Positions 27,437 to 62,269 of a stretch of 64,000 nucleotides of DNA are shown one piece after another. Source of the DNA: Cornus controversa. Taxonomy: Eukaryota; Streptophyta; Magnoliopsida; Cornales; Cornaceae. Numbering within the stretch: position 1 is the first letter of the stretch; the number at the start of each line of letters is the position of its first letter. Made by a program: the position numbers and the translations under genes. The stretch is from positions 51,137,755-51,201,754 of the forward strand of contig CM048853.1 of the NCBI GenBank assembly GCA_026545225.1. Direction: 5' to 3'. The notes under the pieces were generated by a model, which searched no databases, was not told the origin of the DNA, and saw only the letters and a list, made by a program, of their open reading frames with translations.

Positions 27437-28010
27437 ACTTGATATGAAAAAGTTGAAATTTTTAGTCAAATAAAATGGGATGTTAGCTCTTTGATACTTG
27501 ATATGAGAAACTGAGATTTATAGTCAAATAAAATGAGATATCAGGCTTAACCAAGTCTTTGACACTTGATATGAGAAATTGGGATTTTAAGTCAAATAAA
27601 ATGGGATGTTAGTGTTAACTTAGTCTGACACTTGATATGAGAATTTGGGATTTGAGGTAATATAAAATGGGATTTAGCCTTAATTCAGTCATTGACACTT
27701 GATATGAGAAATTGGAATTTGTAGTCAAATAAAATGAGATGTTAGCATTAATTCAGTCCGACACTTGATATGAGAAATTGAAATTTGTAATCAAATAAAA
27801 TGAGATGTTAGCCTTAACTTACTCATTAACACTTGATATGAGAAATTGGAATTTGTAGTCAAATAAAATGAGATGTTAGCCTTAATTCAGTGTGACACTT
27901 GATATGAGAAATTTGAATTTGTAGTCAAATAAAATGTGATGTTAACCTTAAATCAATTTTTAACACTTGATATGAGAAATTGGAATTTGTAGTCTAATAA
28001 AATAGGATAA
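27437..28010. repeat. Tandem array, nine units of about 55-70 bp
   Basis: Nine copies of ACTTGATATGAGAAATTGG followed by a TTGTAGTCAAATAAAATG segment and a variable GTTAGCCTTAATTCAGT spacer. Spacing alternates between two lengths, as if a two-unit repeat had been amplified. Non-coding, flanked by AT-rich DNA. Confidence 0.9.
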
Positions 28011-29189: not shown

Positions 29190-31157
29190 GTGTCAATACA
29201 GAACTTGAGAGGAAGGTTGACAAGTCAACCTATGCCAACATGGCAACCACGTCACAAGTGAAAAAGGCCTATATCCTGAGGGCTCGAGCACCACGAATTG
29301 AGCTCCTAGGCCCATCCCTCGGACGTAATGGCCCAAGCCCATTGCTCAAAAATCATCATCTAAAGGCTTCGAAACCGCATCGCCCTAACGCTACAGTTTA
29401 AGTCCAGGGACCTATCTCTCGAGCACTGTCAACAAAGCCTCGGGGGCTATCTTTCGAGCACTATCAATAAAGCCTCGAGATTTACATCTCGAGCACTGTC
29501 AACAAAGCCTCGAGGGCTATCTCTCGAACACCCTCAATAAAGCCTTGGGAACTATATCTCGAGCACTGTCAATAAAGCCTCGAGATCTATATCTCGAGCA
29601 CTGTCAACAAAGCCTCGGGGGCTATCTTTTGAGCACTATCAATAAAGCCTCGAGATCTACATCTCGAGCACTATCAACAAAGCCTTAAGGGCTATCTCTC
29701 GAGCACCATCAATAAAGCCTTGGGAACTATATCTCGAGCACTGTCAACAAAGCCTCGAGGGCTATCTCTCGAGCACCATCAATAAAGCCTTGGGAACTAT
29801 CTCTCGAGCACTGCCAATAAAGCCTCGAGATCTATATCTCGAGCACTGTCAACAAAGCCTCGAGATTTACATCTCGAGCACTGTCAACAAAGCCTCGAGG
29901 GCTATCTCTCGAGCACCATCAATAAAGCCTTAGGAACTATCTCTCGAGCACTGCCAATAAAGCCTCGAGGGCTATCTCTCGAGTACTGTCAACAAAGTCT
30001 CGAGGGCTATCTCTCGAGCACCATCAATAAAGCCTTGGGAACTATCTCTCGAGCACTACCAATAAAGCCTCGAGATCTATATCTCGAGCACTGTCAACAA
30101 AGTCTCGAGATCTACATCTCGAGCACTGTCAACAAAGCCTCGAGGGCTATCTCTCGAGCACCATCAATAAAGCCTTGGGAACTATATCTCGAGCACTGTC
30201 AACAAAGCCTCGAGGGCTATCTCTCGAGCACCATCAATAAAGTCTTGGGAACTATCTCTCGAGCACTGCCAATAAAGCCTCGAGATCTACATCTCGAGCA
30301 CTGTCAACAAAGCCTCGAGATCTACATCTCGAGCACTGTCAACAAAGCCTCGAGGGCTATCTCTCGAGCACCATCAATAAAGCCTCGAGATCTATCTCTC
30401 GAGCACTGCCAATAAAGCCTCGAGATCTATCTCTCGAGCACTGCCAATAAAGCCTCGAGATCTATACCTCGAGCACTGTCAATAAGACCTCGAGAACTAT
30501 ACCTCGAGCACTGTCAATAAAGTCTCGAGGTCCAACCCTCGAGCACGGACACCAAAGCCTCGAGGCCTATCCCTCAGGCATCGCCCATAAACATTAAATA
30601 TACGAGAACATTCTCACAAATCAACAAACAAACCCTACAGCTCGACAAGGTTAAGGATCGGTAGGTCCCGCCCTTGCAGCCATGTAATAGGGTCCAAATG
30701 GGATACCAGAAGGGTTTTGGATTGGAGGATGAACAATAGAGAAAGCCCAACTAAACCAAGGGGGCCTAGTTAGTGGAACAGTGAACGATACTTTGCCGTA
30801 ACAGAGACTCTTACCATCATCATTAATGCTCTGTCAAAGAATAATTAATGTGACCAACTACCGCCGCTAAAGGATGTCTGAGGGCATTCAATACAAAAGA
30901 AAGGAGGTGACATGTTAGGTGTTTAGGGTACTCATGACCTAAGCACCCTCGACCCGTCTAGGGTGACCCGAGACCAATGACTTTTTATAAATAGAGAATT
31001 CTGTAATAATGGCAAGGCAAGGTCCTACCCTCACTATCTTCCCCATTAACTAGCTCTAATTGTTTCCCCTCTGGTCTGGATACTCTTTGGCTCCTTCATA
31101 GTTGTGTTGACCACCCCATTTATTATATAAGTTACTGTTATCAATAAAGAACCCCTA
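29190..31157 (+). mobile_element. LTR-like block with internal 35-bp array (fossil, probably solo LTR)
   Basis: The block is non-coding. Its distal part has a promoter-like TTTTTATAAATAGAGAA at about 30982 and an AATAAAGAACCCC polyadenylation-like signal near the right edge, which ends CTACA. A GC-rich leader and a large internal tandem array complete the picture of a long LTR. No gag-pol DNA was seen beside it. The left edge is approximate, the target duplication was not resolved and the family is uncertain. Confidence 0.5.
29400..30590. repeat. 35-bp minisatellite with CTCGAG palindromes, about 34 units
   Basis: The unit is CTCGAGCACTGTCAACAAAG followed by CCTCGAGGGCTATCT, with two or three alternating variants (GGGCTATCT, ATCTATATCT, AACTATCT). 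Many units hold two CTCGAG palindromes about 15 bp apart that can pair with each other. The period is not a multiple of three, so an open frame of 126 codons (30035-30415) shows the same unit in three frames and is not a gene. Confidence 0.95.
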
Positions 31158-39260: not shown

Positions 39261-39832
39261 TCGAAATCAGCCTTATATCAATTCTACACCCAGTAAAAAT
39301 CTTAGTTCTATGAATTCAATATAAATAAAATACATTGAGGATTTTGGCTTAGATCATCGATCAAAACTAGTGAGTAGCTGGGAGCCCATAATATTCATCA
39401 AAATCCACTAAAAATTAGATTTAAACTATTTATATATATCCACTAACAATCGAATATATATATATATATATTACCTTCACCACTGTGGATTAAAATCCTC
39501 TCCTGTGAGGATTCAGTCCTGTTCCAGCCAGTGTGCTATATGTGGTTGTGGGTAAGCCACATCACTAACTAAACTTTACTAAGCCACCTCACCAAAATGG
39601 ATAAAAAAATTAACTGAGGCTAGCAGTATAAACCATTTACGCCTCTATACAAATACATATACAAAAAACATTTTTCCCGCCCAATTTTTTGATCATCTTC
39701 TTCAGCCATATATATATATATATATGTACACACACACACTTTAGTTAGCATCTTTATTGGCTAAAAATAGATCGTTTTCAACAAAAACGCTCAACGCAAG
39801 GATACGCGCTCAAGGCTCTCTACTCACTCTGG

Positions 39833-39864
<32 letters not shown>

Positions 39865-40680
39865 ACCAAGTTGGTATCTTTGGTGATAATCATGAATGTT
39901 GTGTATATCTTTGGTGATATTATTGATTTTGAATCTGACATTGGTGCTTATTTATTTATATGGGATGGGGTACGAGCTGAGTGCTTGTGGGATTGGTCAT
40001 TTATACAATATGGGTTTCTTGATGTTATGTTTGGTGTTTTTATACTTTGGTTCAGTCAATTTACCAGGTGGATTTATTTTTAATGATGTCGATTTCGAAA
40101 TCTATGTTTTTTTTGTGAACTTACCTTTCACCAGGTGATTCTACCCTCTATGTACCCCTTCTCTGTAGCTCCCTCCTCCAAGTGAAAGACCATAAATGAG
40201 AAAGCCAAAAAGTTGTTAACTGTCATGATAAAGCCTATAAGTTGTTAACTTTCATGATAAAAGTGTACGACTAAAAACTCAACAGATGGTATTAATCTTT
40301 GAAATAAGTCTAAAAGCATTCCAGTAGCCTTTCACTCATTGACTAAACTAATTATGAAAATTTTGAAGAATCTGATGCCAATAAAATAGAAGTAAAATTT
40401 TTATTAGGCAGGTAATTAATTGCAAAAGGTGTCAACTGAAGGCTTTATCACACTTTCTGAGAAAGCCACGTCAATGAAATCACCACTATTGTTACATTTG
40501 CACACTAGCCTCTTGAGTGTTATATCAAGTTAATTTTAATATTTCTTTTCTAAAGTTATGGCTGTTATTTTATTTGGTATAAAACGCTTAGAAACAAACT
40601 CACCATTTCTTTCTTGGTTTATTCAATAATTAAGGGAACAAATAAAATACAAACCATAGCTAGAGCAAAAATAATAGGCT
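39261..40680. other. Intergenic DNA left of the MULE-like region
   Basis: Contains (TA)n and (TG)n microsatellites near 39710 and 39845. A tandem pair of AAGTTGTTAACT(G/T)TCATGATAAA lies at about 40212 and 40241. Frames at 39757-40138 have no known domain. The left end of the MULE-like element may lie in the right part of this stretch, but no terminus was identified. Confidence 0.4.
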
Positions 40681-41665
40681 GAAAACTTTAAATGAATGTT
40701 ACATCCTAACTAAAACATAACATATAGGAAACATGAATTATATGTTACATTCCAATCTTAAGGTAACCGATTGCCCAACTTAAGATAACAAGTTGGAAAT
40801 CTAAAATGTATGGTACATCCTAACTTATGGTAATAGGCAAGAAACTTAAAATGTATGGTACATCCCAACTTAAGGTAACAGATTGGAAACATAAAATGTA
40901 TGGTACATCCCAACTTAAAGTAACAGATTGTTCAAATTAAGCTAACAGTTTGGAAACCTAAAATGTAAGGTACATCCCAACTTAAGGTAACATATTGAAA
41001 ACCTAAAATGTATGATACATCCCAACTTAAGGTAACAGATTGTCCAACTTAAGATAACAAGTTGGAAACCTAAAATGTATGGTTACATCCCAACTTAAGG
41101 TAATAGATTGAAAACCTAAATGTATGATACACCCCAACTTAAGGTAACAGGTTGCCCAACTTAAGGTAACAGGTTGGAAACCTAAAATGTATGATACATC
41201 CCAACTTAAGGTAACAGGTTTGAAACCTAAGATGTATGGTACATCCCAACATAAGGTAACAGATTGCCCAACTTAAGATAATAGGTTGGAAACCTAAAAT
41301 GTATGGTACATCCCAACTTAAGGTAATAGATAGGAAACCTAAAATGTATGATACATCCCAACCTAAGGTAACAGGCTGCCCAACTTAAGGTAATAGGTTG
41401 AAAACCTAAAATATATGGTACATCCCAACTTAAGGTAACAGATTGCCCAACTTAAGATAACAGGTTGAAAACTTAAAATGTATGATACATCCCAACTTAA
41501 GGTAATAGGTAGGAAACCTAAAATGTATGATATATTCCAACCTAAGGTAACAGCCTGCCCAACTTAAGGTAATAGGTTAGAAACCTAAAATGTTTGGTAC
41601 ATCCCAACTTAAGGTAACAGATTGCCCAACTTAAAATAACAAGTTAGAAACCTAAAATTTGTGCA
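40680..41665 (-). repeat. Left tandem array of the MULE-like element, about 15 units
   Basis: Units read AAACCTAAAATGTATGGTAC then ATCCCAACTTAAGGTAACAG and a short GATTGG tail, about 45 bp. About half carry an extra 23-bp CCCAACTTAAGATAACAGG segment. The unit is the reverse complement of the 45310-46870 array, so the two arrays form long inverted repeats around the FAR1/MURA gene. The array ends about 350 bp before its start codon. Confidence 0.95.
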
Positions 41666-42012
41666 TTTATGGCTTATCTTACACTAATAAAATATTTACA
41701 TTTAGAGTTTCGTATGCTATAGACTTGGATGCAGTTTATTTCTGACTAATTATGTGAGATAACACATCGTTTCTGTTGTTAATTTTCCTTCATAATTGGT
41801 AGGGCATGTTTGGAGGCAGAGTGTGCAAACATGGAGTGTTTGTCTTGAGAAGTTACATAGGACTATGTAAATGCATTGCTAGGACATGTTTGGGACAGAG
41901 CGTGCTAGGGCATGTTTGATGTTATACTTAGATTAACTGATAAAATTCAAGTCAATTATGATTTATTTTGCTAAATTGTGTTCTATATATGTTTGTTATT
42001 GAAGTTATTCAA

Positions 42013-45000
42013 ATGGAAGTTGAATTAATTAACATTGAAGACACAACAAATGCTTCAGTTCTTGAGCCTGAGCAAATAAAATGGAAACCAAGGTTTTCGA
42101 TGGAGTTTGATACTGAGCAAGACGCATATGATTTTTACAATGCATATGGGGGTAGAATCGGATTCAGTATTCGAAGAGAATATTTTAATAAAAGTCGTGT
42201 TACTGAAAAAATTACATCCAGATTGTTTGTTTGTTCCAAGGAGGGTATTAGGGTGAAGGACAAGAGGGATATATCAACAAGAAATCCTAGGGCTGAAACA
42301 CGAACTGGCTGTGGTGCACTCATGCATATTAAATATAACAACGAAAAGGGAAAGTACTTCGTTTCTAAATTTGTGGAAACTCACAACCATCCTTTGATAA
42401 TTGAGGAGTGCACTCACATGATGCCTTCACAGCGAAGAATTACTGCAATTCAAGCCATTGATGTGGAGTTTGCTTCCGATTCAGGAATTGCGGTTCGTAA
42501 TGCATATGAGTTAATGGGAAAACAAGCTGGTGGGAAACAATCTATTGGCTTCACTAAGCTGGATCAACAAAATTATATAAGGACTCGAAGACAAAATGAG
42601 CTTCAATTTGGAGATAAAAGTTGGCTGATGAATTATTTTCAGACTCAGGCCTGCGAAGATCCTTCATTCTTCTATGCTGTGCAATTAGATAATGAAGAAA
42701 TGATAACTAATATATTTTGGGCAGATTCGAGAATGATAGTTGATTATGGCCATTTTGGAGATGTCATAACTTTTGATACAACATACAAGCTTGTCCACGG
42801 CAATCGGCCTTTTGCATTGTTTCTCGGTCTTAATCATCACCGGGAGACTGTTGTATTTGGGGCAGCCTTCATGTATGACGAGACTTCTGATTCTTTTGCT
42901 TGGTTATTTGATACATTCTTGAATGCGATGTCTAGTAAAGCGCCAAAGACGATTTTGACTGACCAAGATGCAGCAATGGCAAAGGCATTAACGCAGGTTA
43001 TGCCCGGGACGAAACATCATCTTTGTACGTGGCACTTAATGCAAAATGCACAAAAGCATCTTGGCCCATTTTTTGAAGGTGACGAAGACATCAAAAATGT
43101 GATATCCAAATTCATGTCTTGCATTGAGGAAGAAGATGATTTTTTAGTCAAATGGGAAGAAATGTTAACATTATATGGTGTTGTTGATAACACATGGCTG
43201 GACAACTTGTTTGGTTTGAGACATAGATGGGCTAAGGCATTTGTTAAAAATGTGTGGTCCGCAGGAATGCGTAGCACACAGTTAAGTGAAAGCTTCAATG
43301 CTCGATTGAAGGAGTACTTGACGAGGCAACTAACACTTCCAGATTTCTTCAATCACTTTGAAAGGCTGTTATCCGACAAGCGTTACAAAGAGTATGAAGC
43401 TGAGTATGGTTTGCTCTATAAGCTACCTAGACTCCAAAGAGATTGTGAAATTTTAGTTCAAGCCGGAAAGACTTACACAAGGAGGATATTTGAGATTTTT
43501 CAGGAAGAATTCTTAGTAGCTTGTGTCAGCGAGAGAATCATTAGCTACAGTGCCATGGATAGTAATGGACACTGGGTTTATAAAGTTGGCATTCATGAAA
43601 ATGGGGTGCAACGATGCGTGACAAGGACAGATGATGACCAATTATCTTGTTCATGTGGAAAATTTGAAATGGAGGGTATTATGTGCAGTCACACTTTGAA
43701 AGTTCTTAAAGAGGTGATGAACATCAATGAATTGCCTTCTCAATATATATTACCAAGGTGGACTAGAAATGCTAGACATGGTAACATGGATGAAATTCTT
43801 GCTGGTGAAGTTATGGTGGATCCTAAACTTGAAATCAGGCGACGACATAGGATCCTTTGTCGTATTCTAATTGAAATATCTTCTATTGCATCGGAAACCA
43901 ATGAAGGATACAATGATTTATTACTAAAGGCGATGGAATGGAAAAAATCTGCACAAGGAAGTTCTACTCAAAGTTCAGTTGGGAAAGAAGCAAGTTTACC
44001 ACCTATATCCACTGGAATAAATGCCAAGGGCTTGAAGACTAAAGATACATCTAAAGGACGAAGGCGTAGGATAAAATCTGATTTGGAGAAATCTGTGGAG
44101 AAGAAGAAAAAGGCTATAAAACGAAAACTTAAGGTATTTACCAAAATTTCATCGTTTAAGTTAGGATGTAACATACATTTCAAGTTTCTATGTGTTACTT
44201 TTAAGTGGATATGTAACATACATTTCATATTATCATAATATCATTGTATACTATTATATATGAATTTTTTTGCATTGTGAAACTGTAAAATCTCTTAACA
44301 TTTTTCTTTTGTTCTAGAAATCCAAGGACACTGGTGTTTCTGAAGTGGCAGGTAGTAGTGGTAGGAGGACAAGCCCCTCTTATATTCTAGTCAATGTGAG
44401 AATTGTTGTCACTAAATGAGATCTAATAACTTGTTTGGATAACATCTACATAGTAATTTGTTTATTTTGTTTACAATATAATTCTAACCTAACAGAGGTA
44501 CATTATTTATTTTTTGAAGGGTGCTGAAATTCCATCTGAATTTCTCAATGATCATTGTTATGTGCCACCACCTGTAATGCACAAAAGACAGGGTTGCGAA
44601 CCACCTTATAGTTCCGGTATTCATTTTGGTCAACCCATGACTCCTTCAAACCAGGTAAGTGAGGTGATACAATTTTATTTTCGTAATGGAATATAAATTA
44701 TGGCTTTCATTGCGTAATCTCTAATGAACACTTAAATTTTTGCAGACTAATATTGGTGATACGTGTATGTTTTCATCAGAATTATTCAATACTCCTTCTT
44801 CCTATGACGAATCATGCGCGGCTGATATGGCAAGTGAATAATATCTACTTTTTCACCTTAATATTTTATTATGTTCTTATATTTTAAGCTTTAATTGTGA
44901 TTTAAATTGACTTTGGGCATGTTTTCTCAAGTTCCTCTTCAATTTGTATAAGATTTAATAGTAACTACTCTCATATGCTACATGCCTTTTTATTTTGAAT

Positions 45001-45188
45001 GCACATTAAATATTTGTTTTAATACATTCAGATTTCAATAACTCTGTTTTGAAATGCAGGCCTCAGGTAACAATTGCTACAACATCAATCTTGATCTTAG
45101 GCTCAGTCATTCAACTTTCACGCCAACGTCCCATATGCCAATCCCGGAGATTAACCGTAGTACACAACAACAACTATTTAAAACTTGA
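42013..45188 (+). CDS. FAR1-like: FAR1/MURA-type transposase, five exons, intact
   Basis: Exons: 42013-44133, 44318-44395, 44520-44654, 44746-44829, 45060-45188; 848 aa, all in phase. Intron 4 has a GC donor (ATG|GCAAGT). Domains: FAR1 N-terminal DNA-binding zinc domain at about 27-125 (ends THNHPL), MULE transposase domain with DTTY (D255), TDQD (D317) and LSESFNARLKEYL (E426), SWIM zinc finger CSC...CSH (C546, C548, C558, H560), then a basic RRRRIK tail likely acting as nuclear signal. Such proteins are either Mutator-like transposases or domesticated light-signalling factors (FHY3/FAR1). The inverted tandem arrays on both sides and the neighbouring Ulp1 gene favour a transposon gene. The start at 42013 fits family N-termini; an in-frame ATG at 41989 is possible. 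Confidence 0.93.
44155..44236 (+). repeat. Two array-type units inside intron 1 of the FAR1/MURA gene
   Basis: TTAAGTTAGGATGTAACATA and a second TTAAGTGGATATGTAACATA, each followed by CATTTCA, have the core of the 45-bp and 47-bp arrays. They sit just after the donor of intron 1, in the same orientation as the right array. Confidence 0.85.
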
Positions 45189-45309
45189 GTTGGAAGGGCT
45201 TATGTATTTTTTACATGTCTAGTTGGCATATGACTAGCAATTACATTTCTCAGCTGTATGTTAAGTTGAGTATCCTTGAATGTACATGACTCAAATTAAA
45301 TGTTGTTGA

Positions 45310-46870
45310 GAAAACTTCTTAACTTGGGATGTACCATACATTTCAGGTTTTCAATCTGTTATCTTAAGTTGGGATGTACCATACATTTCAGGTTTTCAAT
45401 CTGTTATCTGAAGTTGGGATGTACCATACATTTCAGGTTTTCAATCTGTTATCTTAAGTTGGGATGTACCATACATTTTAGGTTTCCAACCTGTTAGCTT
45501 AAGTTGGGATGTATCATACATTTTAGGTTTCCTACCTATTACATTAAGTTGGGATGTAACATACAATTTAGGATTTATACCTATTACCTTAAGTTGGGAT
45601 GTAACATACATTTTAGGTTTCCTACCTATTACCTTGAGTTGTGATGTAACATACATGTTAGGTTTCTAACCTGTTACGTTAAGTTGGGATGTAACATACA
45701 TTTTAGATTTCTAACCTGTTACGTTAAGTTGGGATGTACTATACATTTTAGGTTTCTAACCTGTGACGTTAAGTTGGGATCTAACATACATTTTAGGTTT
45801 CCAATCTGTTACCTTAAGTTGGGATGTACCATACATTTTAGGTTTCTAACCTGTTACGTTAAGTTGGGATGTAACATACAATTTAGGTTTCCAATCTGTT
45901 ACGTTAAGTTGGGATGTACCATACATTTTAGGTTTCGAACCTGTTAGCTTAAGTTAGGACGTATCATACATTTTAGGTTTCCAACTTATTACCTTGAGTT
46001 GTGATGTAACATACATTTTAGGATTCCAACCTATTACGTTAAGTTGGGATGTACCATACATTTTAGGTTTCTAACCTGTTACGTTAAGTTGGGATGTACT
46101 AAAAATTTTAGGTTTCTAACCTGTTACGTTAAGTTAGGATGTAACATACATTTTAGGTTTCCAATCTGTTACCTTAAGTTGGGATGTACCATACATTTTA
46201 GGTTTCTAACCTGTTACGTTAAGTTGGGATGTACCATACATTTTAGGTTTCTAACCTGTTACATTAAGTTGGGATGTAACATACATTTTAGGTTTCCAAT
46301 CTGTTACGTTAAGTTGAGATGTAGCATACATTTTAGGTTTCTAACCTGTTACATTAAGTTGGGATGTAACATACATTTTAGGTTTCCAATCTGTTACGTT
46401 AAGTTGGGATGTAGCATACATTTTAGGTTTCTAACCTGTTACATTAAGTTGGGATGTAACATACAATTAAGGTTTCCAATCTGTTACGTTAAGTTGGGAT
46501 GTACCATACATTTTAGGTTTCTAACCTGTTACATTAAGTTGGGATGTACTATACATTTTAGGTTTCCAACCTGTTAGCTTAAGTTGGGATGTACCATACA
46601 TTTTAGGTTTTCAACCTGTTACGTTAAGTTGGGATGTACCATACATTTTCGGTTTCTAAATTGTTATCTTAAGTTGGGCAACCTATTACCTTAAGTTGGG
46701 ATGTACCATACATTTCATGTTTCCTTTGGTCTTACGTTTAAGTTGGGATGTACCGTACATGTTACCTTAAAGTTGGGATGTAATATATATTTCAGGTTTC
46801 CTATGTGTTACGTTTAAGTTGGGATGCAATATACGTTTAAGATCTGAGGATATAACATATAATTCAGGTT
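45310..46870 (+). repeat. Right tandem array of the MULE-like element, about 30 units of 45 bp
   Basis: The unit is TTAAGTTGGGATGTACCATA followed by CATTTTAGGTTTCTAACCTGTTACG, period 45 bp, very regular from about 45320 to 46680 and then decaying. Because 45 is a multiple of three, long repetitive open frames run through it (for example 46044-46577); these are not genes. It starts about 130 bp after the stop codon of the FAR1/MURA gene and mirrors the left array. Confidence 0.97.
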
Positions 46871-46899
46871 TTCAACGTGTTACGTTTAAGTGGATATAT

Positions 46900-47275
46900 A
46901 ACATACATTTTAGGAACCTGTCTTTTTCCATTAAATTAGGATGTAACATACATTTCAAAGAACCTGCCTATCTCCATTAAAATAGGATGTAACATACATT
47001 TCAAGGAACCTGCCTATCTCCATTAAATTAGGATGTAACATACATTTCAAAGAACCTGCCTATCTCCATTAAAATAGGATGTAACATACATTTCAAGGAA
47101 CCTGCCTATCTCCATTAAATTAGGATGTAACATACATTTCAAAGAACCTGCCTATCTCCATTAAAATAGGATGTAACATACATTTCAAAGAACCTGCCTA
47201 TCTCCATTAAAATAGGATGTAACATACATTTCAAAAAACCTGCCTATTTCCATTAAATTAGGATGTAACAGTCAT
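46900..47275 (+). repeat. Second right-hand array, about eight units of 47 bp
   Basis: The unit is GAACCTGCCTATCTCCATTA followed by AA(A/T)TAGGATGTAACATACATTTCAAA. It shares the core GGATGTAACATACATTT with the 45-bp array but has different flanks, so both arrays derive from one ancestral motif. Units are nearly identical, which suggests recent amplification. It ends about 130 bp before the 3-prime end of the Ulp1-type gene. Confidence 0.95.
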
Positions 47276-47407
47276 CCATAAAAAAAATAAAACAAAGCCA
47301 AAAAATACACCATCCATAAGTTGGGATGGGATATAATGAATAAGCCATCTAAATAAACCTAACTGTGGCAAAATATATAGTCATCAATAAAAATACAGTC
47401 ATCCACA

Positions 47408-50400
47408 TCACTTTGCATTTTTAGAATATGCTTCATTCCATGCAATGTTGGCCTCTAGGGTGATGTGATCGCGAATTTCGTTCATCGGATGGTCCAAAAA
47501 TTGTAGCACAAACTCAGAACGCATAACCCTTGGATCTGTCTGCAACATTAAGAACAAAACAAAGTTGTGAAACGTAATTGAATATTGGTAACTAAAAAGT
47601 TATAATACATTATACTTACATTGAAGTCGCGGGAAAGCTCGTCGCCATTCCACAACTCCATAAATTTCATCAAAAACACTCCACATGATGTCCTAATATG
47701 CGAATTTTTTATTAGAAATCTGGTTAGGCTATTTATCTAAATCAGTTACTTACTTGCTTTGTATTTAAATTACTATTTATCATGTAAATAAGGTATACAT
47801 ACCCATCAGGCTGAATCGGTAATTTGTCCCGTTTTTTTATTTCAAAATGTGGCCACTCTTCCTCAAAAGCAATCTCAAGAAACTCTTTCTGACATACAAC
47901 ACAAGATTTGGTAAATAGATGACCTAGACACAAATTAATAACCCTGAAAATAATCTGAATAGACATGTACCACAAAGTCCGCATAGTGTGGTTGTCTAGA
48001 GGGACGTCCCTTTGAACAAAGATAGTCAACCATTTTCCGTGGACGATTGACAACTAACAAAAACCAATGTTGCTTCAAGCATGCAGGAAAAAAGAACTGT
48101 GCCAAAGGGAACATCAATAAACTTTGCTGTTATTGCAACAATAAATAAAAAACCTCAAAATAAATGACATGTTCACTTTATAATCATCTAAAATATAAAG
48201 TACTTGTATTTGAATATGTACTATAATATGAGACAGGGACACTTACTAGTAACAAAACTAAAGTAATCAATATTATATATACACGAACAAACATACTAAC
48301 CATCTCCGATTTCTTTAAGTCTTCCAAATCAGTTGTTGCAAGTCTTTTGTACTTCTCCCATACACCTTTCAAGACAGACCTACGGTCCGATGAATTTTGT
48401 ATCTTCTCTATGTTGTTATCCTCCATTAATTGTACGACAAAACTTTTAAGAAACAACTTCTTTCTATTCTTTCCTTGTTCATTGTTCAGAACATTTCCAA
48501 AGAAATTAATCATCTGTTAAAAGAAAATAATTTGATTAGTTAAAGAAATATTGAAAAACATATAACATTGAATATAAATACAAAAAATGTAGTTAGGTAA
48601 ATCCACTCACAAGGCTCGATACCCAATTGTTGTCAAAAAAGTGTGACAGCTCACGTCGACGGAGGGTTTCATCGAACATGTAAACCAGTACTTCACTGAG
48701 ACAAATATGGACCACACCATAAATTATTTATGATACAATATAGAATTTAAAACAACATAAAACAACTTCTTTCTGAGTGCCTATTACACTTACTCTTTCT
48801 CATGGCCAGCCGCTGCCACATAAAACAACTTTTTCTTCTGGTCATCACTGAAATTACTTTTTTTATTGTTTGTGTTTATCCAGGGAGAGTATCCGTAAGG
48901 CCCACATTTTTTTTTCCGTTTGGGTCTTGCAACATTTTCCACTTCTTCAGCAATTGCAGTCTCTGAAATTTTCTGAGACTGTTGCAATGGTGCATCACAT
49001 TTATCTTCTTCTATATTGGGAGTGGGTTCGGTCACACTCAAGTAAGCAGGGTCAACAATGGGTTCCCTATCACATTTGTCCTCATCATTGTCAGCAGCAG
49101 GCTGTTCTTGACCAGTTTTGTAGACATTATCATCAACAAAGGGTGTCCTCTCACCTATATCAATGGGGTCACCAATGGGTTCCTTATGCCATGTGTCCTC
49201 TTCAGTATTAACACCAAAGGGTTCCCCATAACCTCTATCATCATCATTGGTGTCCACCGAGACTCTTGCTTTTTTCTTTCCCTTCCGTTGCCTCACAAAA
49301 GATTCTAATTTGCCTAGCTTGTTTTTTGAAGCTATTACATGTTTTTCTGCTAGTTGGATTTCCATCCGGATTTCTTTGATGTAGCGCTGAGTAAAGAGAT
49401 TATGGTGAGCACCGACAATTTTACAAGAAAGTCTATTCATAGTTAAAATAATGTAATACATATTTACCTTCAACTCTGTGTCTGAATAACTATCATGGTC
49501 AACATCTGTATTTGATGACTCAGACAGAGAAGGGGATAAACCATGTTGAGATGGGCCCGCATTGGTAGTGCTGCAAAATGCTTTGCCCCATAACGGGAGC
49601 AACTGTTCCAAATTGATATTAAAAGATGAAGTTAATTTTCAGCAAAATAGTTATTATCCTCTTTTCAATTCCATATACTACAAATATTTAAAATGAAGAA
49701 TAAATAATATTACCTGACCGTGTCCAAAACCTCCCATCTCATTCTCCCACATTAAGCGTTTTCGTACAAGGTCATTGTGCCAATAACCAATGTTTTGTAT
49801 ATCTCCCTTGGGATAAGAAGGGTATTTCACAGCACAACGCGTCAAATACAGAAGCTGTTTTAAATTGCATGAAACAAATGAGACAACATTCATATTAATA
49901 AAGAATCAAATTTTATATAAAAAATTAAATATATAATCTTAGGAAATATAATATTATATACCTGTAAGAAAATCATACATCCGCCGTACATTTGTTTTTC
50001 CTTCACATCTGCATCTTCTTTTATACTGTTAAGTAAACACTCTCGGACATATGCGCACCAGTTGTAAGTCCTAATTGCATTAACATCATCAACAGCTTTC
50101 CACAAGCTCATATGGCATTGATAATGACCATTTGGGCTAAGTATTGCAGCACAAGCAAATAGGACAAATGCTCGCTTAAAATCATCTCCAACTTCTAATG
50201 TTCTGACCTTCTCAGCCAATTTTGCTAAATGCATTCCTCCCCTCGCTCGATATCCACCTTGGACTATCCAATCTGCAACAAAGTGGGAATTTTTTGGCAC
50301 TTTCACATTGCCAGCAGGTAATCCTAGGATAGATTGCACATCATCCCCATGTACGGACAGATACCCTATCTCCTCAACTTTAATAAGAGATTTATCTGAA

Positions 50401-51512
50401 TCAAAATGTTTTATTAAATATTGGCAAAGTAAACGTGACAAGTAGGAGCATTTCAGGTTCAACAAAACCTCAAACCCAATCTCCTTAATTGCCTTCCTCT
50501 TTCCATCATCAAGATAGGATATGACTTCAATGAACTTGGGGAGCGAGCATCTATGCCAACAACCTTTTGGTTTTATTTGGTTCTGAATCATAACAAAACA
50601 TTACATTCAGAAACACAAATAACATAAGAGGAAAACATAATTATTTTATTTTCTCAAACATAGTAGGAGAAGTAATGAAATAAAATGATTACCAAAAAAA
50701 AATTACCGTGTTTTTGGAAACTTTATTTGGTTCAGACTTTTTGAACTCTTGATGTAGTTTTTGATATAAGTGGATATAAGGAGCTTGTTTGTCATTGTTC
50801 ATTTTTCTCCAAGCATCAAGAGCTTTCTTGTGAATTTCATTCATTACTTCGCTCTTAACTCTTTCCTTTAGTCCATGCTTTTCTCGATAGCTCTTCACAA
50901 AATCAGATCTGATATCATATGACAAATTATAAATTGAGGATAATGTATGTGCATCACAAATTTTATTAACATGTATAAACTATGAAATGCTTATAACATC
51001 CCAACTTTTTCCTCACATGTTATAAGGTATACACTTGTTCATAAAAAGAGCAGAACTGATATTTTGAGAGTAATTTTGTCACTATGAATTTTGCAATTGA
51101 AAACCACCAACTCAAGAACCGCCATAGAATAGTTGCAAGACCTTGAAAGACAAATTTGACTTAACCCATCTATCTCGTGTTACTTGCTAAAATCAAAATT
51201 ACATATCAATATGACTTAGGGGAATTTTTTTAATTTAAATGTGAATGTAAATTTGAATGTATACCTAAAGAGGAAGAAGGTTCCGGCAGGCCGCTTCCCT
51301 ACTTTCTTAGAAACTGAATCTACAGCAGCTGTTGTGGAAGCGCCTCCCGTAGCCTTTTCAGAATTCTCTTCCATCTCGGAACTATGGATAGCTGATGGAG
51401 AACTTGGAGTAGAAGAAGGATTGTAATCACTATCGTCGCTTGAACTTGTTGGAGAGATAGGTACGGATTTCTTCTTTGGGGATTTTTTAGCTTGCAATTT
51501 AAATCTAGGCAT
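47408..51512 (-). CDS. HMG-box-like plus Ulp1-type cysteine protease, twelve exons, intact
   Basis: Exons on the minus strand: 51512-51265, 50908-50707, 50582-49962, 49854-49714, 49602-49468, 49386-48794, 48695-48611, 48513-48301, 48096-47971, 47888-47803, 47692-47620, 47539-47408; GT-AG throughout, 884 aa, no stop. Residues 72-143, split by intron 1, look like an HMG box: KRPAGTFFLF, then DAWRKMNNDKQAPYIHLY. Residues 150-400 resemble the plant-mobile/DUF1985-type region of transposon Ulp1 proteins. Residues 450-640 are charged linker with KRKKK. The C48 protease domain (about 660-845) has QHW (H756), Gln814 and TSCGVF (C820); where Ulp1 has its catalytic Asp this protein has Cys773. Ulp1 enzymes cut SUMO or related modifiers. 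ULP-like genes are known passengers of plant MULEs. The gene converges on the FAR1/MURA gene, with the arrays between them. Confidence 0.88.
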
Positions 51513-52234
51513 TTCAATTTGTCTAATTCATGAATGAAACCAAAATTAATCAGAAAATTTCAAAAAATCCAACAATTGATGGGCAAAATATGATCTTTAT
51601 AAGACAATTTAACAATTAAGCACCAACCAATAGCAAAAAAATAAAAAATAACAGTAATATCCCAAGTCCCAACTTTAAGGTTTGTTAATCGTGAGGTAGC
51701 GTGCCAAAAATGTGTGCCAAGTAAAGAATTATATGAACTATGACTTGCCAATCTGTGTCACACATGTATCCAATATTGAAAGTATCAATGACAAACATAA
51801 ATCAAAAGATCTGTTAACATAGATTCTGTTAACAAAATGATATCACTATGTTTCCAGTGCAAAAATAAATAAAAATAACAGAAAAAAAATGAGCATTCTA
51901 CGTTACTTGAAAGATACCAGTCAACAATGTATAGGTTAGTTTAGTGTTATCACACTTTTTTAACCTTAGTTTAGTTTTGGACTTCCTCTTCTACTAGCAT
52001 TACCCTTAATACGGACAACATTTCCTAACCAATGGATTTACTGGACGTCATTGCACACAGCCAAACCATCTTAACAAGCTCTCTCTCATTTTATCTCTAG
52101 TAGGTGCTACTTCAAACTCAAACATCCCACCAATGTGTTCATTTTCTATTTTGTCGTTTTTTTGTCTTGCCACACATCTAGTTCAACATTCGCATCTATG
52201 CTATACTTATTATATGAATGTGTTATTTCTTTAA
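51513..52234. other. Region upstream of the HMG-Ulp1 gene
   Basis: Presumed promoter and right flank of the MULE-like element. The 45-bp unit is absent here; only a weak CCCAAGTCCCAACTTTAAGG match at about 51660 recalls it. No terminal inverted repeat or target duplication was found. Confidence 0.4.
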
Positions 52235-52400
52235 CTACCCACTAATATCTCCAATAAAGTATGAATTGTCTAACAAATGTTCTAAAGATTTATCTCGATC
52301 ATACAATATTCCAGAAGCACTCCTCCATTTAACGCATCCCATTTTTATTCTATGATCAACTTTGCAAGCTTCATGTTCATATGGTCCTAGCAATAGTTTT
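52235..52400 (-). mobile_element. LINE fragment, 3-prime part of RTE-type reverse transcriptase
   Basis: The minus-strand frame includes VDHRIKMGCVKWRSASGILY, the well-known RIKxGWxKWRxASGVLCD segment near the C-terminus of plant RTE LINE proteins. The usual following LKLKGKFYR block is absent. It is a short isolated piece of the same family as the 36640 fragment, but on the other strand. Confidence 0.75.
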
Positions 52401-53300
52401 ATGTTGGCTGTGAAGCTTTTTAATGAGTTAATCAAAATAAAGTATACATAGTTCTGAAATGAACATTTGATCATGTTATTTATTGTTAAGAGTAACTTTT
52501 ATCAAGGAAATTCACTTCATCAAATATTGCATGGTCATTGTCTGGGTTATGCTGTAAGTTTCCTGTTCATAGTTGAAAGGTAAAACCTGAATATGCATGC
52601 TGACACAGTGACACCACCTCTGTTCTGTTTGAATGAAGGTGGTAATGCAATCCCTCAGTTTTTATTCAGGTCACAAAAATATGAGGAACAGCACCAAAAG
52701 GCTCGTACTGCTGTGCCTTCAAATAGTAATCTTAATAAAGCAGATTGACCATCTCTGATATTATGTGTTTTTTGTAAAAATGTCTATAAGCTGTTTTGTT
52801 TTTTTAAAAGGTAAGGAACCAACCATAGCTTTAGAGGGCTGGGACTTCTGCTGCCTGTTCCAAACCAAAGCTTGGGACCAAGCAGAGACCAGGGGAAGCT
52901 CATGCTCAATACCATCTGTACACTATTTGCTACTGATATTTATGCTCATCTTGTATTCCTATCCTCATTCTTATTGTGATGTAATACTAATATATGGTGC
53001 AAATGCTATCTTAAAATCCCTCTGTGAAAATTTACTTGAGAATAGATTCTCTCTATTCTTTCTGGCTTTTTGCGGTGCATTCGTTGTGGTCTTAAAGAAG
53101 TAGATCCGCCCGTACATCTAGTGACATTGATGATCATATTGTGTTCGTATTCTGGTAAACCATATATGGTGCAAGTGCTTTCACGAATTTCCTCTGAATA
53201 TATATTTTAGACTACATTCAAATTATGAAGAAATGAGGCTTTTTAGCGAGTGGTGAAAAAAGAGTATAACAAATTACATGGACTAGATAGATGTGCACTG
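52401..53300. other. Intergenic DNA, no gene recognised
   Basis: GC-richer segments at 52605-52720 and 52800-52930 look exon-like and have moderate open frames, but no family was recognised. Given the nearby gene-fragment relics, they could be captured exon pieces. Confidence 0.35.
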
Positions 53301-53302
53301 CA

Positions 53303-53353
53303 AAAGTTGCCCAGCAAAACTGCACCTACCCTGAAACACTCTATTCCAACCCA
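53303..53353 (+). repeat. 51-bp direct repeat, left copy (second copy 55642-55692)
   Basis: AAAGTTGCCCAGCAAAACTG and the following CACCTACCCTGAAACACTC match 55642-55692 with two mismatches. The copies bracket about 2.3 kb holding the L1-type fragment. Confidence 0.85.
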
Positions 53354-54290
53354 TGCAACTTTGCAAAATCTAAATGTTTATGATAGAGTTATGGTTCTGC
53401 CAAGGTTATGAACTGGCATGCTTATTATGGTAAACAGAGTAATAATAGAGTATTCATAAGTTTCAAGGCTCAAATTAAGCTAACAGCTACAACCAGTTGT
53501 CGGAAGAAATTTAAAGGGAAACAACGCACCTTTCTTAACAATAACAGAGAAGAAGGCTAGAAAAGCATAGGATTGACCGAGCTAGGAACTTGTGGGACTA
53601 ATATTGGCAAATTTGACACTAGAATGTTGGCAGAGGCCAGTTGTGTGTCCTTGGTTCTGCTATTACTTTTTCTTCTTCCTCCACAAGTTTTTGTTCTTCT
53701 GTTCTTCTTATTCTCTGGAGAGACACAAATAAATAAATAAATAAATAACAGTGACTGCATGAGCTGGGGTGGTTAGAGTTCATAAATTCAGCTCATAAAA
53801 TTTCCAATTTATCAAATAGCACCTTCCTTTTCTAATTTGCAGATCCTATACAGAAAAAATACAGGACATATAAGAAGAACTAAACATCTTACAATTTAAA
53901 TAAATATAACAAAAGTATTAAATCAAGTACTCTTCCACTTTGAAAAAGTTTTCGCTGACAAGTACTCTTCCTCTAGGAGGTGTTTAAGTTATCAAATTAT
54001 GAAAAAAAAAAAAAAAAGTTCCCAAACACATACAAAAATGAAGCAAAAGGTAAATGTTTCTAACTTGGAAGTCTCATCCCTGAATTAGTAATATCATATT
54101 GTAAGTGTCCGAAGCTTCAATCAATTGACTGACATTCAAAACTCTACATGTAGTTAGTAAATTGTGACAAGTCAGGTTTGTTTTTTAGTCCCAGTACTGA
54201 TGCACAACTGTAGTCCCAAATCAAAAGTTTGCTAAATATGTGGCATACTTCTTGGAAGAATGTGTATTTGGGATTACCAGCAGCTTTGGG
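53354..54290. other. Intergenic DNA, no gene recognised
   Basis: An (AAAT)n microsatellite lies at 53728-53749 and a poly-A run near 54001. Short frames have no domain. Confidence 0.4.
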
Positions 54291-54294
54291 TAGA

Positions 54295-55212
54295 TCTAAA
54301 GTTGAAAGTTTTTAATATGTGAGTGATCAAATCTCATCCAAAGTGAAGCACTTGAAAGGAGAGTACATGTCAAAGGCAGGTAGGGAGGTTCTTTTGAGAT
54401 CAGTTCTGGCTGCTCTTCCCATTTTCTCTTTCCAGTGTTTCAAATTTCCCTCCACCATGTGTAAAACTTTGACAAGTAAATTGTCTAATTTTTGTATGGG
54501 GTGGGAGTGATAAATACAAACTGAGATAAGTGGGAGTTATAAGTACAAACTGAGATGGGTGAGTTGGTCAACAATTTGTCAACCTAAGAAAGTGAGAGGA
54601 TTGGGTTTTAAGTTTCTTGAAGCTTTGCTCACTAAATTGGCTTGGAGATTGGAAGTAGAAGATAATTCTCTGTTTTTCAGAATTTTGAAGGCTAAATACT
54701 TTCCTTCTACTTCATCTTTGAATTTGTCTAGTGGAAGGAGTGCATCCTGGGCATGGAAGAGTATCCATTCTGCTAAACCAGTGCTATGAAATGGTTTAAG
54801 ATGGAAAATTGGGGATGGTAAACAAATTAATATTTGGTCTGAAAATTGGCTTCAAGATCTGAGTAATCAGAGGGAGACTTAAGGAAAAAGAGGTTGTCAA
54901 CTACAATGGGTGGCTGAGCTCATTGATAAGATTTACATTTATGGAAACATGATGTGATTCAACGACATTTTAACAACAGGGATAGTAGGCTTATTTTACA
55001 GATCACTCTGAAACTTTTACCTTGTCCTGATAGCAAGATTTTGGGTCCAACTGCAAATGGGAAATTTTCAGTCAAACCTGCTTATAATTTGGTTTTGAAG
55101 GTGTTGCAGCAAGATCCAAGGAATCAAGGTAGTTGTAGTGTGGTGTCAAAAATGAATTCTTTATGGAAAGGTATACGGTTTTTTGGACTGTCACTAAAAG
55201 ATTGTTCCTAAA
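54295..55212 (+). mobile_element. L1-type LINE fragment, C-terminal part of reverse-transcriptase protein
   Basis: Consecutive plus-strand frames give blocks found after the reverse-transcriptase core of plant L1 LINEs: KVKHLKGEYMSKAGREVLLR, LPIFSFQCFKFP, CQPKKVRGLGFKFLEALLTK, LAWRLEVEDNSLFFRILKAK and a GKFSVKPAYNL stretch leading towards the zinc-binding region. Stops and frame changes break it (for example near 54510 and 54789). Neither the catalytic core nor a poly-A end is present. It is a truncated, dead copy. Confidence 0.85.
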
Positions 55213-55641
55213 AAGCTAATTCTTGTAGTGTATATTGAAACAAAATTTTAGTACACATCATATCACAAGTGAGACATTTTAGTCGATCTTGATCCTTTTC
55301 ATCACTAATATGGTAGTAAAAAATTGCAAGCAAATTGGAGAATAACTTAAAGAGTAGCAGAACCACACACAAAATGGAAGTACAAATGGATGAATTAGAC
55401 CCTAAAAAATAAAATAAAATAAAAGAGGGGAGAAATTACAAAAAGTCCTATTTATAAAAATATAAGACCATCAAATCCTATTAATGAACAAGCAAAGAAA
55501 TGAATTTGAGGACTGAACTATAATGGACAAATGATGAAAACAACTCTTTAAAATGATCACAATCTAACTCATGATGAGGCAACTATATGTCCCCTGGTTG
55601 ATCATAACCCTAAGATGACAATCTGATGTTATGCTATTGCT

Positions 55642-55692
55642 AAAGTTGCCCAGCAAATCTGCACCTACCCTGAAACACTCCATTCCAACCCA
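55642..55692 (+). repeat. 51-bp direct repeat, right copy
   Basis: Pairs with 53303-53353, with two mismatches. Confidence 0.85.
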
Positions 55693-56309
55693 GACAATAT
55701 CAGAACACTTGAGCTAAATTTCATAGCCAAAGGTACCAGATAGCTTAACTTGGTTGATTCAATGCCATAGAAAAAGCGTTGTACTACAAGTTATCTGTTC
55801 ATTTTCATTTCTATAGGTAATTTAAATCCTATAAGTTTGTCAAAAACGTTGTACTACAAGTGCTGACATGTCATTTGAAAGTAAGGGGTGGGGTTAAATT
55901 CTTGTACATAAATCTTAAATTTCAAAATCTCCATTGGTACTTGGCAGAACTCAGCAGCTGTTGTACTATTCTATTAGTTGCAATCTTTTAGTCAATAGGT
56001 ATAAAAGAGGATCTAGAGGAAGTGTATATGTGGTAGTCCTCCACTTGTTCATGCTTATCTGTTCCATTAATTCAATCTTTTCGGTCAGAGTTGTGGCTGA
56101 GTTTGCCAGAACTTTACACGTATGTACATACGCGCGCATATATATATATGACATAGAACATTATGGGTTGACAATTATGTTCATCCGATTTAATAGATTT
56201 TAATTTTGGTTCTGCAGACTGGTCTGTCCAAATCTGGGAGAATGCTTGTTGAATTCATTTGTATGTGGCATGCATTTATTTATTTATTCTCTTTTGTTAC
56301 TGTTAACAG
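55693..56309. other. Intergenic DNA, no gene recognised
   Basis: AACGTTGTACTACAAGT-like blocks occur at about 55782 and 55846, suggesting a small local duplication. No further exon of the PAA fragment was found. Confidence 0.4.
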
Positions 56310-56402
56310 GTTGGAGTTGTGAGGAAGGAGAATCCTGTGTTTAGAGTGTTGTTCATGGAGGAGATTGAGAAACATTTGATTGCCATAAGTGAGTGTGATT
56401 AA
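56310..56402 (+). pseudogene. PAA: Last-exon relic of 20S proteasome alpha subunit PAA
   Basis: After a TGTTAACAG acceptor the frame reads VGVVRKENPVFRVL, then EEIEKHL and AISECD, then a stop. This is the C-terminus of plant proteasome alpha-type-6 (PAA), usually VGVVRKExPEFRxL...EEIEEHLTAISERD. Substitutions at otherwise conserved positions and the absence of upstream exons show it is an isolated exon copy, intact in frame but not a gene. Retention of the intron-exon boundary implies capture as genomic DNA rather than through mRNA. Confidence 0.8.
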
Positions 56403-57600
56403 GTACTGGTCAGAATCTGAAAATGCATTCAAGTAGTCATTCAGATTTTATAAATTGCAAGACTCGCTTTTTCATTCGACTAATCATTAGACCTGTTATT
56501 AAATCAGATGCCTGAGTTTTAATTGTAACAGTGGACTTTGATTTTGAACTACAATTGTAATTGTAATTGTCTAAAGCATTTGTTGGACTTTGACTTTCTC
56601 TCAAAGAAATAAAGAAAATAAATGGACATCGAATGCATGAAAAGATAAAAATGAAAAGAGTGTAAGTAGGATAAATAATAAGTACAAACCTACAATTGCG
56701 GACACAGGCACAATGTGTGAGACAATGCTACTAAAATTAGATTACTTAGAAAACGTGTACCATAGAGTTATGAATCCAAGAGGAAAAACAATAGACTTAC
56801 AAGTTGTATTGAGTGGTAGGGCTTGAGTGTCAGTACATAACATCAACGCCTTCTTGTGAACAGGTTTAGTTTTGCCAGCAATTAGAATTTTATGAGGGTC
56901 ACTGCAACACTGAACCATAAAATGAGGTTTCACAATTACAAGAACAGGTATATGTAGAAAAATCTCAAGAATTTATCTACTTTTTGAAAGCCTCAGAGGC
57001 TATAACCAGCAAAGAGAATGGGAAAATTGCACCTTAACAACAATTTTAACACCAAGGAATTATGTGAATGAGGTTTTATGGCAAAATCATGTTTGAATTT
57101 GAGGGCAACCACCTGACCTTACACAAGAAGTAAATGTCAGGTATCTGACCTCATCCACCCTTCCAAGGCTGAATACTGGATAATGTTGATCCTTATAGTA
57201 GGTCGCCTCCTGATGAATATATTCATATCTTTATAATAAAATTTTCTTTCACACATAGGCAAAACTCACTGCTATACTGAATTGATCCTTTCTGTTTCTT
57301 TCTTTTGGTAAGTAAAATTAAATGTTTGAGTTGAATTTTTTTTTTTTTGAATGGTATGTTTGAGTTGATCTTGTTCAACAAAACTCAAGCCAGATGACAT
57401 AATTCAATTATTCCACTTAAATTTATCTTTTATATATATATATATCTAAACACAAAGATATACAAATACAAAGGGAAAAATAAAAATTAAGAAATTTATA
57501 CACACAAATACAAATACGAGAGAAAAATATTACCTTAAAAATAATAGAAATTCGGAACCTAGCATCAATCGAAATCGTTGATGACTGGAAAAAAACCCTC
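56403..57600. other. Intergenic DNA with one exon-like patch
   Basis: On the minus strand at about 56917-56800, a TTCAG acceptor opens a frame CCSDPHKILIAGKTKPVHKK. No family was recognised and no partner exons were linked. The rest is AT-rich, with a TA run near 57433. Confidence 0.35.
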
Positions 57601-58465
57601 TGAACCCAAGAAACAATTGTTAGGGTATTGTGAGTTGAACTCGATGAACCCTAGACTTAGAGATAGAGAGAGAGAGAGGGTGTACCTAACCAGAGTTGGT
57701 GCTGCAACGAGGTGAACTACAGGTGCTTCTACAGATACTTCTACAAGCGATGCTCTGGATATGGAGGATTTACTGAGTCGGCAAAATGAACTGCTTCTAC
57801 TGGTGCTAACTTCGATTATGCCACGGCTTGATCGTGAAGGCTCTCCTCACTCACTAACCGCATCTCTATCTCTAGCTGGATGTGGTTCTCGATCATATAT
57901 GAAGATCAGAATCAGTACAAAAGGGATAAAATTCAAGAAATTAGAAATTGGCTGAGAGAATCGTGTGAGAGGGAGAAGAGAGAAAGAGAGGGGTGGAACT
58001 AAGAAAGGTTTCGATCAAAAAAGAAAGAGGCTTGAAGAAAGAAGGCTTGAAATCCTGAAATCTTCTTCGGGTATGTCGATCTGCTGTGCTTTCACTGGAG
58101 TCCGGGGAAGGCTCTGCTCTGCTCTGTTTTTGATTGGCTGAAGAGGACGATCGAAAAATTGGGCGGGATTGAGATGGGTTTAGTTTGGGCGGGATGGAGA
58201 GTAAAATCAGATATAGGTATATACTGCTTTGTATATGTATTCGTATAATAAGTAAATGATTTTTTTTTAATTGGAGATAAATACACAAAAAGGTAAGTGG
58301 TATTTACCACATATGTATGCAATAAGTCCCTCGATTTGAGCGCACCGGCTGGGACTGGTTGGTTCCAAACAGGAGAGGATTTTAATCCCACCACTGTACC
58401 AATTACTATTTACAATATTAATTCATTCACTTACCTATTTACCCACAATAATGACACAGTTAGGA
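57600..58465. other. GC-richer, GA/TC-rich DNA resembling a gene 5-prime region
   Basis: GAGAGA tracts (57661-57680, 57958-57992) and exon-like composition suggest a first exon or leader. Open frames on both strands overlap and have no recognisable domain. No gene is called. Confidence 0.35.
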
Positions 58466-61540: not shown

Positions 61541-62269
61541 ATTTTTAGTCAAAAATAAGATTATATAAGTCTTAATATCTTTAGTATGATAAACAAGAAG
61601 TGACCCTCACTCGAGTTTTAGTGAGTTAAACTCGACTGATTTGCAACCCTTTTAATAACAATTCAATTTAACTAAATTGATTAAAAATATATATAGATCT
61701 CTTAATATCCTTGACATGATAAACAGAATTTGACTAGTAATAACAATTCAATTAACAGAATTTGTTAAAAGAGTATATAATAGTATCTTTCAACTTTTGG
61801 GACACTTTAAAAAGTTGGATATCTTCTCCTCTCTGTAAAAAGACAAAGACCTAAAAAAATGGCAAAAGATAAAGTTTATCTCAACAAAGCTATTGTTACT
61901 GAGTTAAGTTATTCATCATTTTTTCAAAGGAAAAAAAAATAAAATTGATGAAATTCAATACACTTTTTACTATTTGTACACGAGATGTTGTCAAGCCAAA
62001 AAATACATTTATAAAAGAAATAACAAATATACATTAAGCTTACTAAGATAAATAAAAGATTTTTAGAGTAGTTGTATAGTGAAATCTTCTCTTTATCTCA
62101 AAATTGAAGATTGAGGGTTCAAATTTCATAGGGTAAGTTGATAGGTGAGTTAGTTATTCTTAAGGGAAAAAAAATAAAGAAGAAAAAAGAAAATAAAAAT
62201 ATTTTCATGATATTATCAATCTGGAACCTTTTTTTTTTTTTTTTTCAGAAATTAATTTAACAAAATTGT
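61541..62269. other. Intergenic DNA, no gene recognised
   Basis: At 62075-62120, GAGGGTTCAAATTTCA resembles a pol III B box of a SINE, but no A box at proper spacing was clear. The rest is AT-rich. Confidence 0.4.

Follow-up and report, generated by a model that had tools for sequence, protein, structure and literature searches.

Does a pair of convergent genes lying among inverted tandem arrays in the genome of Cornus controversa belong to a transposon, where does that transposon end, and what might its arrays do? The sequence analyzed here (the window) is a stretch of 64,000 nucleotides, C9:51137755-51201754. A sequence-only reading had placed a large MULE-like element at 40680-51512, with an intact FAR1/MURA transposase gene bracketed by about 15 and about 30 oppositely oriented 45-bp units and facing an intact Ulp1-type gene. 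It had suggested recent or current activity, had proposed looking for further copies of the unit and of both genes and for the element ends with their target duplication, and had named single-copy host genes beside a local repeat as the outcome that would overturn it.

Ends, copies and recent movement

We searched the whole 64-kb window for perfect 12-bp inverted pairs separated by over 1 kb and flanked by a perfect 9-bp duplication, and a single pair emerged, at 39487 and 58388, with CACCACTGT on either side (39478-39486 and 58389-58397). The whole element spans 39487-58388 (18,902 bp), bounded by terminal inverted repeats (TIRs) and by a perfect 9-bp target site duplication (TSD) at precise ends, as in MULEs. 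The interval first proposed was correctly assigned to a MULE and is the inner part of this element, which extends beyond it by 1.2 kb on the left and 6.9 kb on the right. The left TIR occupies 39487-39708 on the plus strand, and the right TIR, its inverted match, 58135-58388 on the minus strand; the outermost 20 bp are identical, the sequences then diverge, and a 34-bp inner block (39675-39708 and 58135-58168) is 91% alike. In the genome, 28 of 51 matches to the left TIR start at 39486 or 39487, most of the others being inner pieces, while 16 of 56 matches to the right TIR start at 58388 or 58389, with many of the others again inner pieces. Two narrower delimitations, one with the arrays themselves as TIRs (an element of 40.68-47.28 kb) and one ending at the Ulp1-type gene, were refuted by the TIRs and TSD lying farther out and by a second copy that aligns exactly to 39487 and 58389. 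By its sequence, 39487-58388 is almost certainly a transposon, and by its structure a MULE. The inner TIR block contains TCCCGCC, which we take to resemble an E2F site and which could link expression of the element to dividing cells.

The genome searched comprises 771.7 Mb in 61 contigs. A 601-bp transposase probe, for which 40 of 102 candidates were scored so that counts are lower bounds, gave at least 41 matches. Nineteen of these, at 88-100% identity, come from 18 close loci, among them that of the window itself; two of the 18 are partial, one being split into two pieces. At least 22 further matches, at 77-80% identity, form a sister group. Exon 3 of the Ulp1-type gene (hereafter the partner gene) has at least 42 matches, with 40 of 57 candidates scored, and the 23-bp core of the array unit occurs 366 times in exact form. 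Host genes, too, can encode FAR1/MULE/SWIM proteins, and a domesticated FRS gene would be single-copy without TIR or TSD; the transposase gene here is multi-copy, with TIRs and a TSD. At least 18 close and at least 22 sister loci exclude, for this genome, the case of single-copy host genes beside a local repeat, and the idea that the two genes are domesticated host genes (FRS-type and ULP) is so strongly contradicted by the many copies, the precise ends, the TSDs and a recent second insertion that we give it almost no credence.

The window copy (A) was compared with seven close copies (B to H). Of these, copy B on C6 can be aligned over 39487-58389. Within 2 kb, the left flanks of A and B have only AT-dinucleotide runs in common and the right flanks nothing; one further weak match, 141 bp at 72%, is out of register. 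Five copies (A, B, C, E and F) show both TIR ends and a target duplication. The duplication of A (CACCACTGT) is perfect, as are those of B (CTCTTTATG), C (TAAATGTAT) and F (TATAAGTTG), and that of E has one mismatch; the DNA fetched for D, G and H lacked one or both ends. L052, the sixth element bounded by TIRs, has flanks without a matching duplication, and target duplications are present in five of the six elements with both ends read (four perfect). L052 retains the last ~80 transposase codons and 37 array units, has no partner match and is seemingly rearranged. Inward-facing TIR matches 7-9.5 kb apart also occur at C7:56921720-56929035 (in L052), C1:72162125-72171419, C6:44003179-44012727 and C7:10328632-10336098; these four pairs, outside the scored transposase matches, are candidate non-autonomous relatives.

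With the right array set aside, A and B are separated by a single substitution over 5,832 bp and by 5 over 11,113 bp (6 in 16,945 bp); in that array, B exceeds A by 405 bp (9 units). At a substitution rate of 7e-9 per site and year, the two copies would have split about 25,000 years ago, a figure that gene conversion could make look younger. The near identity of A and B at unrelated sites argues that the element moved very recently; the activity first suggested from intact frames is thus borne out, as recent movement, by copy B rather than by the frames alone. Of the eight copies examined, only A and B have both genes open. In each of the other six, the transposase gene is disrupted by an in-frame stop or a frameshift or is incomplete. 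The partner gene is interrupted by stops in E, F and H, and the DNA fetched for C, D and G yielded no match to it.

The right-hand part of the element varies among copies. Homology to A stops at 51722 in E and H and at 51910 in F, and resumes at ~58025 in E and H, leaving 51911-58024 unaligned in all three. This segment is a patchwork: 52000-52417 matches C6:47.8 Mb (98%), 52412-52674 matches C3:55.7 Mb (83%), 52668-53047 matches C6:21.1 Mb (93%), 52709-53249 matches C8:58.3 Mb (96%), and, apart from family copies, 55850-57100 matches C2:61.8 Mb (95%); a stretch within 52000-52363 matches some 30 places at 68-70%, as a dispersed repeat would. The right 6 kb is probably captured host DNA, Pack-MULE-like, in an element that still carries both genes; a nested insertion is a possible alternative source. 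A third gene was sought in 51.5-58.1 kb, and none of ten ORFs compared with Pfam (nine of them from there) reached the curated cut-off. Part of 54.3-55.2 kb reads like what is presumably a LINE fragment, with no Pfam match among the ORFs scanned.

Two convergent genes

The transposase gene (42013-45188, plus strand) consists of five exons (42013-44133, 44318-44395, 44520-44654, 44746-44829 and 45060-45188) with 849 codons including the stop, and its last intron is GC-AG. The partner gene has twelve exons, reads along the minus strand from 51512 to 47408 (895 codons with the stop counted) and converges on the transposase gene. Both models were made by hand from splice rules and reading frame, and neither contains an internal stop or a broken splice site. 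The five-exon and twelve-exon genes of the sequence-only reading are therefore confirmed as intact and facing each other, and an HMG box is added to the second.

Pfam domains of the transposase are FAR1 (residues 40-129), MULE (PF10551, 102 bits over the full profile) and SWIM (residues 540-565). An N-terminal FAR1 and a C-terminal SWIM domain make up the Jittery-type arrangement, and by this domain layout the transposase fits Jittery-type MULEs. A comparison of a transposase exon with solved structures returned two weak ribosomal-protein matches, which we judged to be chance, and a search of viral_contigs with the transposase and the core motif of the arrays found no relatives.

The protein encoded by the partner gene joins an HMG box to an Ulp1-type domain. 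The HMG box (residues 73-143) scores 26.1 bits, barely above the Pfam cut-off of 25.4, and reaches 33 bits in one sister partner protein; the exon carrying most of it, folded as one sequence, is predicted to form a single long helix (pTM 0.41), a result that neither strengthens nor weakens the assignment. The C48 domain (PF02902) spans residues 671-841 with 50.4 bits, placing an Ulp1/C48 gene inside the element ends, as in ULP-carrying MULEs. DUF1985, the VANC domain, gave no Pfam match in the partner at E<=1. In an alignment to SENP2, whose catalytic positions we take to be His, Asp, Gln and Cys, the active-site His, Gln and Cys match and the Asp position is Cys, so the His-Asp-Cys active site of an Ulp1 protease is incomplete, with His and Cys kept and Asp replaced. 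The same Cys occurs in one sister protein and in copies B, E, F and H. Because they recur in relatives, the HMG/Ulp1 fusion and the lost Asp look like family traits rather than damage to this copy, and, since the active-site Asp is missing, a role of the partner as a SUMO protease is doubtful.

We counted the partner as linked where a match lay downstream of the transposase within 35 kb (close loci) or 20 kb (sister loci). Twelve of the 18 close loci have such a match, convergent in all 12, with two unusual distances of 30 kb and 0.4 kb; the other six have none within 35 kb among the scored matches. At the sister loci, linkage was found in 6 of 22, again always convergent, with none among the scored matches for the other 16. 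The alignments of copies E, F and H span the arrays and the partner gene together. The partner gene evidently belongs to the element and travels with the transposase.

Against one sister element, the transposase has dN 0.176 and dS 0.987 (330 codons); for the partner the values are dN 0.545 and dS 1.161 (590 codons), inflated by alignment into introns, and for its exon 3 alone dN 0.424 and dS 0.949 (205 codons), values of dS near 1 being poorly measured. The partner has thus changed more than the transposase in this comparison, a contrast that rests on few comparisons, given that the transposase reaches dN 0.256 (dS 0.608, 620 codons) against a second sister locus.

Inverted arrays and their core

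The arrays were delimited with a profile made from 30 right-array units, which match it by construction. The left array (40672-41663, minus strand) contains 18 units of the 45-bp repeat. The right array (45319-46678, plus strand) contains 30 units of 45 bp (to 46666 by the profile and to 46678 by TRF) and continues at 46686-47275, on the same strand, as degenerate units and then 46-bp units (46899-47270) that retain only the ~25-bp core; this continuation comprises 13 units at E<=1e-3 followed by a weak final unit, ending at ~47275. The sequence-only reading had placed the arrays correctly. The window contains 476 inverted pairs, and the 25 longest include arms of 149-179 bp that are 85-89% complementary and 4.4-5.6 kb apart.

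Units also occur in introns. Intron 1 of the transposase gene holds two degenerate units (44156-44227, plus strand; dimer profile E=1.6e-10), and a unit at E<=1e-3 is present there in seven of eight copies, the window copy included. Intron 1 of the partner gene holds a relic of a unit dimer (50942-51007, minus strand) that scores 13.3 bits, compared with a best score of 11.8 in 200 shuffles of the array-free window (none of the 200 reaches it). A candidate extra unit at 51664-51716 (E 3.8) was left out of the count.

The core AAGTTGGGATGTANCATACATTT has 58 matches in the window at up to three mismatches, all within 40690-47231, and none in 100 dinucleotide shuffles. Array variants preserve TTAAGTT-GGGATGTANCATACATTT or near it, and the 46-bp units and intron copies keep a ~25-bp core while the rest of the unit differs. 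The reversed control for the genome-wide count of the exact core gave zero. The first 100 of the 366 places, by position, fall in copies G, I (C1:27.48 Mb), H, F and E, at a partial transposase at C1:47.65 Mb, and at C1:72.16 Mb, a TIR-bounded stretch without a match among the scored transposase matches. The core is limited to the element within the window and to places of the family among these first 100.

The arrays lie inside the TIRs and are not terminal: the right array stops 11.1 kb short of the right end, and the profile search found no 45-bp unit in the TIRs. Their size differs among copies, with 18-31 units on the left and 0-52 on the right (left/right: A 18/43, B 18/52, C 18/0, D 20/0, E 21/29, F 21/29 plus one distant unit, G 31/0, H 28/42). 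Left-array units were found at 18 of 19 close loci (five at L046 and none at L047), as lower bounds from flanks reaching 1.5 kb upstream; at a sister locus, L050, none was found in a flank of the same reach.

Known MULEs and the possible role of the arrays

Both the element type and the ULP cargo are already known. In the available parts of PMC6446971, the plant Jittery group (group 36) has FAR1 at the N-terminus, SWIM or CCHC at the C-terminus and TIRs of 39-292 bp or none, and its plant members have one ORF and a TSD that is not indicated or is 8 bp; Jittery has TIRs of ~200 bp and 9-bp TSDs according to the accessible text of PMC9569675. The window element resembles the maize Jittery group in its FAR1 N-terminus, SWIM C-terminus and TIR length within 39-292 bp, but differs in its 18.9 kb, in its second gene (HMG box and Ulp1-type) and in its long inverted arrays. 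In grapevine, ULP sequence lies downstream of the transposase in some Jittery-like families, and the multi-copy, Jittery-like Jitvine-1 and Jitvine-2 measure 11.9 and 14.4 kb, with TIR or TSD not listed, in the portion of PMC2528002 at hand. The element described here is likewise Jittery-like, and unlike Jitvine it has TIRs and a TSD, together with an HMG box and arrays that are absent from the Jitvine account as far as that portion goes (PMC2528002). With Arabidopsis KAONASHI (KIU genes) and melon ULP MULEs it shares a ULP-type gene, which in KI elements also lies in reverse to the transposase. The original papers on KAONASHI and the melon ULP MULEs are reportedly Hoen 2006 and van Leeuwen 2007. 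KI elements are described as non-TIR MULEs in the available text of PMC2528002 and PMC13317346, whereas the window element has TIRs; Ulp1-carrying VANC genes are the KIUs, and the role of their Ulp1 domain is called unknown (PMC13317346, same text).

The nearest parallel for the arrays comes from the VANDAL elements. As given in excerpts of PMC5735166, VANC21 binds motif arrays, such repeats lie in introns and upstream of VANA, and VANA is much more conserved than VANC. Tandem short-motif arrays in non-coding parts, upstream of the transposase and in introns, are likewise present here, as are a partner that changes faster than the transposase and repeats gained or lost between copies (PMC5735166, PMC10398659, both in excerpt). 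VANDAL transposases, in contrast, belong to another MULE clade (PMC6446971, in part), their TIRs are degenerate, and VANC carries DUF1985. In the open literature, as far as its text was accessible, we found no description of an HMG-box/Ulp1 fusion, of the lost Asp or of inverted arrays within long TIRs, nor an HMG box joined to Ulp1 in a MULE; the accessible text of PMC12477816 has 'hmg-box' in a reference only.

The FAR1/MULE/SWIM transposase would cut at the TIRs. By analogy with VANDAL, the HMG-box/Ulp1-type partner, alone or together with the FAR1 domain, would dock on the arrays via the 23-25 bp core and protect the element from silencing, as VANC does on VANDAL motif arrays. The statement as a whole, that this is an autonomous, recently mobile Jittery-type MULE whose arrays dock an element protein against silencing, we consider about evenly balanced between right and wrong; for the docking and anti-silencing role, modeled on VANC, our confidence falls a little short of that mark. 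Docking is favored by the core kept in 45-bp units, 46-bp units and the transposase intron, by array sizes that vary among copies, by the greater change of the partner against one sister element, and by the TIR-bounded, nearly gene-less L052 with its 37 units. Against it count the missing DUF1985, the closeness of the HMG match to its cut-off, a sister copy that, read upstream and between the genes, has the partner gene and zero units of the array, and copies C, D and G, in whose fetched DNA the left array is present and the right array and the partner are missing. That a Jittery-type TIR MULE evolved recognition of its own DNA independently of VANDAL, by an Asp-less HMG/Ulp1 fusion and inverted arrays whose length changes faster than the sequence of the element, is a tentative extension that we regard as rather doubtful.

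The same arrays could instead be passive minisatellites produced by slippage or unequal exchange, their symmetry dating from one ancient inverted copy and their core kept by chance. Tandem arrays also arise without function, unit number shifts fast here (9 units between copies with 6 substitutions elsewhere), and other, unrelated minisatellites occur in the window. We nevertheless think this unlikely, on small counts: 46-bp units and intron copies keep the ~25-bp core with the remainder different, and L052 lost nearly all of both genes yet kept its array. We attach a similarly low probability to the arrays being extended internal transposase sites, with FAR1 binding the core, the inverted arrays pairing the ends and the Ulp1-type protein employed elsewhere. 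FAR1 is by its Pfam name a DNA-binding domain, the arrays flank the transposase gene in inverted orientation, and the left array is kept in copies without a partner match; MULEs with tandem TIRs, in which repeated sequence also lies towards both ends, are on record, though with a few whole-TIR copies rather than dozens of 45-bp units inside the TIRs (PMC3310237, consulted in part). However, the right array stops far inside the right end, the unit is absent from the TIRs, and the sister subfamily (77-80% in the transposase probe) lacks it in two loci read.

A further alternative turns the docking proposal around: the inverted arrays would yield hairpin or antisense transcripts and small RNAs and so attract silencing instead of preventing it. 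The long, complementary inverted arms fit such a role, and long TIRs of MULEs are often siRNA sources (PMC10398659, from the available text), but both recently moved, gene-intact copies carry full arrays on both sides, and we consider this reading distinctly improbable. For docking by the partner, the family offers a clean test case, with two near-identical full copies, both genes open, exact ends and a family-specific candidate binding site, and comparison material in decayed relatives that miss parts and in a sister subfamily with a partner-type gene that is array-less in one copy read. Should the partner prove to bind the core, such self-recognition as a defence against silencing would extend among MULEs beyond the VANDAL clade.

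The window holds further repeats and coding fragments. A minisatellite at 29412-30575 (33 copies of a 35-bp unit with CTCGAG, and a 209-codon open frame inside) shows no sign of connection to the element. An array of a 68-bp unit (7.7 copies) lies at 27427-28003, and inverted copies of another repeat, 87-90% alike, occupy 14260-16202 and, near the right end of the window, 62267-63832. On the minus strand there are a lipid-transfer-protein-like ORF at 9052-9462 (LTP_2, 60 bits) and a copia gag fragment at 18413-18862 (104 bits).
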